NCBI RefSeq assembly: GCF_003025035.1 | Contig: NZ_PYJN01000001.1 | Location: forward strand, 118,501 to 182,500 | Length of the DNA: 64,000 bases | Source: Rhizobium sp. SEMIA4064 | GTDB taxonomy: Bacteria > Pseudomonadota > Alphaproteobacteria > Rhizobiales > Rhizobiaceae | Reading direction: 5' to 3' | In this document: positions 2,338 to 3,477 of the stretch, piece after piece | How the letters are laid out: every line of letters begins with the position of its first letter | How positions within the stretch are numbered: the first letter of the stretch is position 1 | Position numbers and translations under genes: made by a program | The notes under the pieces: model-generated | The model's database searches: none | What the model saw: only the letters and a program-made list of their open reading frames with translations | Told to the model about the DNA's origin: nothing

Positions 2338-2706
2338 TCGGATTCGTTTGCCGATGAGGCGGAAGTCGGTCTCGCCTTTAACGAAACTACCCTTGCCAGT
2401 ACCTGTATCGATTGGCGCTCAGATCGCTGCCAAAAACTAGGCGGATTCTGATGCGTCACGTCATCTCGATGTCTACTATCCGACGCCTCATATTCAAGTA
2501 TCCTCATTATTCACAGGGGCGTGTTATTGACTGTCGAGGCATAATCGAGTAGGGGTGCGTGCCTTTTTTAAGGCATTGAAAATATACAATTTTTTGGAAT
2601 CACATTGAATATTTTTCGAATTTGCGTCGCGAACGAAGGTGAGAAACACTTGTCAAGTGGCGTGATTCGACATACAAAATCAACATCCTGTTGATGACAG
2701 GAGCCT
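2338..2706. other. AT-richer gene-poor stretch
   Basis: No coding region is convincing. Base composition is clearly lower in GC than the flanks, especially at 2560-2640 with several A/T runs. This suggests an intergenic remnant or acquired segment. I see no terminal repeats or transposase fragments. Confidence 0.4.
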
Positions 2707-2732
2707 AAAAGGCCCCCACCGCAATGGGGGCC
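2707..2732 (-). terminator. Intrinsic terminator of the 42-residue protein gene
   Basis: The stem GGCCCCCA (2711-2718) pairs with TGGGGGCC (2725-2732) around a six-base loop. In the minus direction it is followed by TTTT. It lies 34 bases past the stop codon of the small gene at 2766-2894. Confidence 0.8.
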
Positions 2733-2765
2733 CCAATCCAGGCACAAGTCTAGGGGAAGTCTGGG

Positions 2766-2894
2766 TTAAACCGTAGTCGCGCGGCAACGCGGCCAGCGGC
2801 GGCAGTGCGAACAAACATGTTCCCACTGGCCCAGACGGAACCGCCAGTAGTCAGCAACTGACACTGGGCGGAATGCGGGACATGATATTCTCAT
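2766..2894 (-). CDS. Small 42-residue protein with a CSHC motif, unknown function
   Basis: The product is short and basic/aromatic. It starts MRISCPAFRPVS and ends in WPRCRATTV. The middle holds DYWRFRLGQWE followed by a CxxC pair (CSHC) and one further Cys near the end, which could bind a metal. It has no signal peptide or membrane segment. The start is set by an excellent Shine-Dalgarno site (AAAGGAGAGGG, 2897-2907) six bases before the ATG. A longer frame from 2957 has a weaker site. A dedicated promoter and terminator enclose it, so it appears monocistronic. I do not recognise the family. Confidence 0.6.
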   Translation of the reverse strand: MRISCPAFRPVSVADYWRFRLGQWEHVCSHCRRWPRCRATTV

Positions 2895-2900
2895 ATCCCT

Positions 2901-2925
2901 CTCCTTTCTCTTTAAGAGCAAGGAG
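2901..2925 (-). promoter_or_regulatory. Shine-Dalgarno-sequestering hairpin
   Basis: On the minus strand CTCCTT (2925-2920) pairs with AAGGAG (2906-2901), the ribosome binding site of the 42-residue gene. The inner stem CTCT/AGAG (2918-2915 with 2911-2908) closes a TAA loop, with one G-A mismatch between the stems. The geometry would block ribosome access and suggests translational control. Confidence 0.55.
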
Positions 2926-3028
2926 GACCCGCTCTCACCAGTCCTTCGGCGCTTCATGCGACGAAGCTAAACCTCCCTGGTTGCTACCAAGAATGCCGCC
3001 TGAATGCTGCGGACAAGTGATGCCAATC

Positions 3029-3057
3029 TAATACTAGCATCGTGGCTTAGAGGCAAG
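3029..3057 (-). promoter_or_regulatory. Predicted promoter of the 42-residue gene
   Basis: On the minus strand CTTGCC (3057-3052) and GTATTA (3034-3029) are spaced by 17 bases. The first is close to the alphaproteobacterial -35 consensus CTTGAC. Transcription from about 3022 would give a leader of roughly 130 bases. Confidence 0.35.
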
Positions 3058-3477
3058 GTGAGCCTGCGTGGGATGCCTCTAATTCCCCAGTAATTCCTCA
3101 TAGAGGGGCATTTGACTATAGATTCACTATTTACCGAGTCTAGTAGAAAGGCTCTCAGCGGGGCTGTATGTCAATTTTATTGCCGTGCCGCACTTGTTCT
3201 GGCGGCGGCACTCAGCTAGCGATTCGACTTCTCGTGGCATCGAGGGAGCAATTTAACGGTTTCAACATAAGAACAGTTCTTCGTATCCCGATTAGACCCT
3301 AAGGCTGATTGATCCGCGGTTTCCCTGACAGCACTTACCCTGCATCCCGCACCCCTTCTCCCCGCCCACCCAACCAAAATCGCCACATTGCAGCGCACAA
3401 AAATCTGCTAGGAAAAAACGAATCGTTTTCTGCTGTTGCTCTTGAGAGCTCCAGCTCGACACGCCCGAGGATGCATC
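3058..3477. other. Gene-free stretch between the small protein gene and ydcF
   Basis: Overlapping frames on both strands at 3292-3698 show no domain and have the composition of shadows of the ydcF region. I see no RNA gene or repeat. Confidence 0.4.

Follow-up and report, generated by a model that had tools for sequence, protein, structure and literature searches.

A tiny coding gene with a folded leader in Rhizobium sp. SEMIA4064 and its family of small, uncharacterized bacterial proteins

The micro-gene and its transcription unit

The window that we analyzed, a stretch of 64,000 nucleotides from Rhizobium sp. SEMIA4064 (contig NZ_PYJN01000001.1, positions 118,501 to 182,500), contains an interval with only short open reading frames (ORFs) between a GIY-YIG ORF that ends at 2337 and a DUF218/YdcF-like ORF whose start was called mechanically at 3436. 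An earlier note on this DNA had described the stretch as gene-poor and had placed a tiny gene on its minus strand, and both descriptions hold. The ORF occupies 2766-2894 (minus strand; ATG at 2894, stop codon at 2768-2766), and its 42-residue peptide, MRISCPAFRPVSVADYWRFRLGQWEHVCSHCRRWPRCRATTV, has a net charge of +6 and a predicted beta-hairpin fold.

Substitution patterns argue that this frame is under coding constraint. Across 13 core loci, the window included, pN/pS is 0.20 in the micro-gene frame and 0.38 to 3.2 in the remaining five frames, and pS is higher than pN in each of the 78 pairs, which are drawn from the same 13 loci and are not independent. The low ratio and the unanimous pairs are the reason that we judge the ORF to be coding, a real yet easily missed gene. 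The earlier note had proposed a synonymous-substitution test and had named loss of the frame, or conservation of the RNA without coding constraint, as grounds for rejection; the frame is kept and the constraint is present. At the DNA level, the segment has a match in only 2 of 99 other related genomes, while a protein-level search at E ≤ 0.001 matched 11 of 148 Rhizobium genomes, its own included, two of which are unconvincing (G042 and G183, corresponding to L014 and L015; no in-register start codon and an incomplete motif). An alignment search of one-per-species genomes yielded 32 named loci, which include members in Rhizobium, Phyllobacterium, Mesorhizobium, Jiella, Fulvimarina, Sinorhizobium, and Sphingomonas and reach more distant beta- and gammaproteobacteria.

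The micro-gene appears to have the elements expected of an independent unit, a view that its constrained frame, its own terminator, and a plausible promoter partly support. The terminator that the note had read in the sequence is present at 2707-2733 on the minus strand as a GC-rich hairpin, GGGCCCCCATTGCGGTGGGGGCC (2733-2710), followed by T4 (2710-2707), and a stable hairpin with a T-rich tail is kept at all 13 core loci. A candidate promoter, TTGCCT-17-TATTAG, lies at 3028-3056 on the same strand and would give a transcript from about 3021 to 2707. This predicted transcript (~310-318 nt) folds at z -5.4, with none of 100 shuffles as stable. When the span from -210 to -85 was scanned in 12 loci, the -10 element of the best-scoring promoter ended 125-149 nt before the ATG in every one, and 8 of them have a -35 element of the TTGC/TTGT type. 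The 17-spaced promoter of the earlier note stands as a sequence and has counterparts at a similar distance in relatives, but promoter scores in the 12 loci do not rise above those of shuffles (Fisher p 0.12). Simple consensus scans flagged neither this promoter nor the 2707-2733 terminator. The 12-locus tests, here and below, exclude L006 and L025, which are near copies of other loci, and keep the homologous L010 and L024.

Past the terminator lies a conserved noncoding block (2611-2690, plus strand) with 88-97% identity to L006. Farther out, identity to L006 is 65-78%, except for 93% at 3090-3051, and a second alignment gave 63-83% for the upstream flank. Conserved downstream blocks also occur in the pairs L007/L016 (at +240 to +300) and L010/L024 (at +180 to +240), and none was found in the pair L017/L019. 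In the 12-locus test, complementarity between the downstream region and the leader was not unusual. A candidate convergent promoter, TTGTCA-17-TACAAA (2650-2678, plus strand), points into the micro-gene; we regard it as tentative because convergent promoters score no better than those on the opposite strand in the 12 loci (Fisher 0.015 versus 0.021). A DnaA-box-like sequence, TTATTCACA, is found downstream of the micro-gene at 2507-2515 on the plus strand. Sites within one mismatch of TTATCCACA occur 250-430 nt past the start codon in 7 of the 12 core loci, against 0.44 expected, an interval that was picked once the positions had been seen, and the excess is absent in the wider family (0.23 versus 0.20 per kb). 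TTGAC is present on the antisense strand 220-256 nt before the stop codon in 9 of the 12, and the two sets of loci overlap just partly. RTTGA and GAWTC motifs accompany the DnaA-box-like site and TTGAC in window positions 2500-2705 and the matching core regions. The region 2500-2705 could be an origin, a set of integrase arm sites, or a regulated promoter.

The leader RNA

The Shine-Dalgarno (SD) sequence AAGGAG lies 6 nt ahead of the ATG, and the hairpin that the earlier note had drawn around it is part of the minimum-energy fold. This hairpin, P3 (2901-2925, minus strand), reads CTCCTT (2925-2920), G, CTCT (2918-2915), a TAA loop, AGAG (2911-2908), A, and AAGGAG (2906-2901), so that the SD pairs with CTCCTT. 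The P3 alignment is too poor for covariation, and burial of the SD was instead judged by comparison with leaders whose upstream part was shuffled. For the window leader, the unpaired fraction of the SD in the ensemble is 0.20, versus 0.49 after shuffling, and 9 of 100 shuffles are as low; the means over the 13 core leaders are 0.29 and 0.45. The SD is buried in nine of these leaders (unpaired fraction 0.00-0.20, with 0-15% of shuffles as low). By the same measure, burial is not seen in L010, whose site may be out of register, L018, L019, or L022; in the predicted fold of L018, the start codon is paired in place of the SD.

The core loci have two further elements in common upstream of the final, mostly SD-holding hairpin. 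P1 (2944-2966, minus strand; CTTCGTCGC...GCGCCGAAG) is the best conserved helix of the leader. Across 14 leaders, 93.5% of its cells hold standard pairs, versus 27-74% when the partners are slid, and its covariation score is reached by none of 500 shuffles, which ignore relatedness; 57 of the 500 equal or exceed its count of pairs with both bases changed. The P2 region (2917-2943, minus strand) can form two mutually exclusive helices, one of the GGAC/GTCC type (~2943-2926) and the other GGTGAG/CTTGCT (2939-2917), the second of which overlaps P3. P1 and P2 together are 89-91% paired, and none of 500 shuffles attains their joint covariation score. P2 alone, in either form, is ~83-84% paired and lacks significant covariation (scores equaled or exceeded in 86 and 58 of 500 shuffles). 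A switch between P2 and P3 helices, though possible, is not supported, as P2 shows no significant covariation once separated from P1, and no trigger for an RNA switch was found. An SD-like hexamer, GGGAGG (2972-2977, minus strand), lies ~80 nt before the start codon and is present in 12 of 14 core leaders, L018 and L023 being the exceptions; by analogy with tisB, it is a possible ribosome standby site.

A covariance model of the leader matched 7 of 148 Rhizobium genomes; every match falls at one of the seven core genes, and no other site is hit. Each of the seven had been used to train the model (14 rows), and weak matches are lost under the strict filters, so this result is informative only for the absence of other sites. 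Applied to 17 noncore loci, the core model found nothing at E < 0.05 (a weak match in L054 has E 0.091). Leaders nevertheless fold strongly throughout the family: the mean z is -2.02 for 66 noncore leaders and -1.81 for the 13 core leaders, versus -0.41 for controls, a set of 52 long-ORF starts called mechanically (p 1e-10 for noncore and 3e-5 for core, the members being related). On the basis of this difference, predicted folded leaders are supported as a trait of the whole protein family, and the fold predictions suggest that the micro-gene is probably held back by its own RNA leader.

A family of tiny basic proteins

Homology searches place the window gene in a widespread family of tiny, uncharacterized bacterial proteins. 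We counted 79 distinct full-length members of 25-54 residues, with start codons assigned by rule, from alpha-, beta-, and gammaproteobacteria, plasmids, and phages; their net charge ranges from 0 to +10 with a median of +6. Profile searches found the family in 17 of 148 genomes of the genus and in 14 of 398 genomes of the phylum at E ≤ 0.001. At E ≤ 0.01, the order yielded matches in 33 of 397 genomes, the last of them weak. Among 74 aligned members, V13, Y16, R18, R20, G22, E25, V27, H30, and R32 are invariant or nearly so. The counts leave out members above E 1e-6, the Muribaculaceae/Bacteroides loci L027-L029, in which the frame is broken ahead of the C-terminal part, and L101 (774-1574, minus strand), in which the motif sits within a 267-residue ORF; the hairpin may thus also exist as a domain. 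Two different members are found in tandem within ~550 bp of one genome at L046 (4671-4784 and 4983-5102) and likewise at L057 (1057-1173 and 1489-1605).

The phage cluster phrog_21154, a profile over the YxRxRxGxxExVxxHxR core, matches residues 9-37 of the window protein (E 2.2e-4) and 72 of the 74 aligned members (best E 4.6e-12). Pfam gave weak matches only (best E 0.007), NCBIfam gave none for the window protein and five others, and PADLOC gave one match to the family (E 0.087) that is not convincing. Searches of the PDB returned nothing by sequence at E ≤ 10 and nothing by fold at E ≤ 0.001. AlphaFold2 predicts a beta-hairpin for the window protein (66 rows; mean pLDDT 88.5, pTM 0.52), and a structural search of BFVD ranked H0092 of phage VT2-Sa first (E 0.45, probability 0.93). 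A predicted hairpin that is basic and has invariant Arg and Tyr residues would be suited to binding nucleic acid. We recognized no prior work on the family in the open-license PMC literature listed, in which peptide sequences are poorly searchable.

Some members carry a C-terminal tail that resembles a sliding-clamp-binding motif. The pattern Q-[LM]-x-[LF]-(F or x-[FL]) ends 22 of the 79 members, with examples such as QLTLF, QMELF, QLSFDF, and QLSLPL; it accounts for 22 of the 36 tails of at least five residues, against 0.20 expected when each tail is shuffled. QL(S/D)LF is the published clamp motif (PMC9690074), and QLSLPL is the hexapeptide through which Hda binds the clamp (PMC3836487); forms rich in F are not as typical. 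Because the tails fall in only 4 of 15 clusters, they may represent few events. The window protein, which ends in CRATTV, has no clamp motif, and its core relative L021 ends in QTSLPL, which the strict pattern does not count. Judged by their motifs, the tailed relatives may dock on the sliding clamp.

Mobile elements, alternatives, and likeness to known systems

The association with mobile elements, like the breadth of the protein family, is missing from the earlier note. In the related genome G048, which does not have the segment, the counterparts of window positions 2354 and 3370 are only 66 bp apart, versus ~1,016 bp in the window. In genome G138, an 820-bp homologous segment occupies the same hot spot and is flanked by a serine recombinase and a 473-residue tyrosine integrase, both identified through similarity to Pfam-matched ORFs of L135 and L022. 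In the window, the decayed 3' end of a tyrosine integrase remains at ~3205-3319 (minus strand; in-frame stop, frame lost) and matches the nucleotide sequence of the intact integrase of L133 (7056-8477). A tRNA-Ala (GGC) at 1834-1909 on the plus strand is a likely insertion hot spot. Matches beside the integrases of L016 and L133 reach into the last 17-20 nt of this tRNA and the sequence that follows, with no whole tRNA at either place, as expected if they are attachment sites. The window copy is apparently what remains of an integrated mobile element with a decayed integrase. Elsewhere among the core loci, tRNA-Leu and tRNA-Arg precede the integrase of L021 and the integrase-like ORF of L022, a resolvase is present in L133 and L022, and L024 and L025 sit between a tRNA-Ser and a phage portal gene. 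Among 20 neighbor ORFs of core loci searched against Pfam, no mobile gene appears in those from L017, L018, and L020.

The reading that we prefer, tentatively and at somewhat less than an even chance, is that a mobile element carries the micro-gene as cargo, that its translation is silenced in a manner somewhat resembling that of type I toxins, and that its product acts on nucleic acid or the replisome. In outline, integrative elements and prophages would carry this protein-coding gene, and its transcript would be poorly translated until the leader opens, through a standby ribosome, refolding, or RNA processing, a scheme modeled on some type I toxin mRNAs such as tisB. The encoded protein, predicted to be a basic beta-hairpin in which Y, R, R, G, E, V, and H vary little or not at all, would then target nucleic acid or the replisome, serving its element as a toxin-like or defense factor; tailed relatives may dock on the sliding clamp, and the window copy would have outlived its element. 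We favor toxin- or defense-like cargo because the basic hairpin suits nucleic acid and because of the clamp-like tails, and the occurrence of those tails in one branch is why a replisome target is proposed. The nonsignificant covariation of P2 alone and the four leaders with an open SD lower our confidence in the whole; the coding frame, the leader, the terminator, and the mobile association, as read from sequence comparisons, each merit much higher confidence.

A narrower version, possible but doubtful, is that single-hairpin microproteins of 25-54 residues, silenced by their leaders, are aimed at the replisome as a minimal system for slowing or steering host or phage replication. One branch would dock on the sliding clamp through its C-terminal QLxLF-, QLSFDF-, or QLSLPL-like tail. 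The rhizobial branch, mostly tailless, would instead lie beside the conserved noncoding block, with its DnaA-box-like site in many loci and a possible convergent promoter.

In L133, L135, and L021, the micro-gene is preceded at a distance of 210-354 bp by an integrase, and in L022, within the same range, by an integrase-like ORF recognized through an N-terminal domain match only. Together with the small, basic protein and the conserved noncoding blocks past the terminator in several pairs, these four core loci would suit an accessory DNA-binding or excision factor that works with the adjoining integrase and whose level the leader limits until excision. We consider this unlikely, however. Relatives also reside on plasmids beside defense candidates and, in two lambdoid phages, in the interval from cI to N; nothing more than a bare hairpin is predicted as the fold, and the clamp-like tails are left unaccounted for.

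The plasmid and prophage settings invite a different proposal, rather less probable still, in which the protein takes part directly in anti-phage defense as a trigger, sensor, or effector cooperating with adjoining defense genes. PADLOC candidates lie beside four of six loci tested, which were chosen as search matches rather than sampled: PDC-S06 (L081 and L084), PDC-M12A/B (L078), and PD-Lambda-2_B (L080). L019 is near HNH and MmeI-type restriction genes, and the lambdoid position belongs to the prophage immunity region. The neighbors vary from locus to locus with no fixed partner, however, two of the six loci have no strong defense neighbor (no PADLOC match for L079 and only a weak one for L085), and the family itself is without a convincing PADLOC match; small cargo genes and defense genes cluster in islands regardless. 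A VapBC or DUF1778-GNAT pair is found near L081 and L088. In Klebsiella, Enterobacter, and Serratia plasmids (L081, 4004-4099; L084, 4001-4096; L087, 4004-4099), the micro-gene converges on a gene for a 733-736-residue AAA-ATPase ~35-50 bp away, with PDC-S06 in the two tested. The lambdoid form occurs in 232 of 5,426 Escherichia coli genomes; it is unannotated in 8 of 8 E. coli records among the matches listed, and most plasmid matches listed have no annotated feature at the gene, in a gene table that is incomplete.

The earlier note had suggested a thermosensor and had taken the CSHC pair of the peptide as a metal- or redox-sensing site, and the results speak against both. The SD hairpin is real, but across 13 leaders the predicted unpaired fraction of the SD rises by at most ~0.13 between 20 and 50°C, so that pairing is almost constant, and no leader matches an Rfam family at its gathering score (searched also to E 5). 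The Rfam matches of L050 to rsmX (E 4.2) and istR (E 3.0) are at chance level, and both overlap the ORF region. CSHC is present in the window sequence, but CxxC is kept in only 3 of 13 core members, its first position being C, I, V, S, R, or A. The cysteines that are invariant across the core are C5 and C31. Among the 79 members, 28 have both an N-terminal Cys near position 5 and C31, 7 have the N-terminal one alone, none has C31 alone, and 44 have neither; with one representative from each of the 15 clusters, the co-occurrence has p 0.04, which is suggestive of a dependence of C31 on the N-terminal Cys. A disulfide or a non-CSHC metal pair is thus possible, and a sensor of either kind is nonetheless very improbable as an account of the locus. 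Another Cys pattern, CH ahead of the first strand and RCC past the second, co-occurs in nine of nine members (L064, L066-L070, L099, L113, and L114). Least probable of all is that the transcript acts as an RNA, as an antisense target or small RNA with the peptide a mere by-product: the leader is 100% identical to L006 over 2970-2931 and a conserved noncoding block lies past the terminator, but amino acids are under strong purifying selection with synonymous sites free to change, and the protein core is kept across proteobacteria, including loci in which the core leader model finds nothing.

Tiny stand-alone genes evade annotation, and this family poses the question of how mobile elements silence a possibly harmful micro-gene without a protein regulator. 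That folded leaders are family-wide while the core model does not transfer to other branches makes the question testable. If the clamp-like tail works, few replisome-directed proteins would be smaller than its bearers, which could also supply clamp-binding peptides.

Several known systems resemble parts of this arrangement. ROSE thermometers, which are included in Rfam, hold the SD in the final hairpin of a multi-hairpin leader in rhizobia, and the window leader likewise has its SD in the last of several hairpins; it differs in having no Rfam gathering match, no predicted melting between 20 and 50°C, and another downstream gene. PHROG 21154, whose function is unknown, shares its profile with the window protein but is a phage cluster, whereas the subfamily of the window gene is mostly rhizobial and has a YWRFRLGQWEHV-type core, C5 and C31, and a leader of its own. 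SocB binds the hydrophobic cleft of the clamp via a clamp-binding motif and blocks elongation (PMC9690074). Tails resembling QL(S/D)LF or the QLSLPL of Hda are the point of likeness here; the window member has no such tail, however, and clamp binding by the family is putative.

A further comparison is with type I toxin genes, with tisB/istR as the model, with which the micro-gene shares a lone small ORF, a candidate promoter, a terminator, a patchy mobile distribution, an SD predicted to be buried in most loci, and an SD-like hexamer far upstream. Most type I toxins are hydrophobic. The window product does not have this usual trait, being a basic, predicted beta-hairpin rather than a hydrophobic helix, and its toxicity and an antisense antitoxin are hypothetical. 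In tisB, a single-stranded region ~100 nt upstream serves the sequestered ribosome-binding site (PMC7708055), and GGGAGG, ~80 nt upstream in the window leader, would be its analogue.
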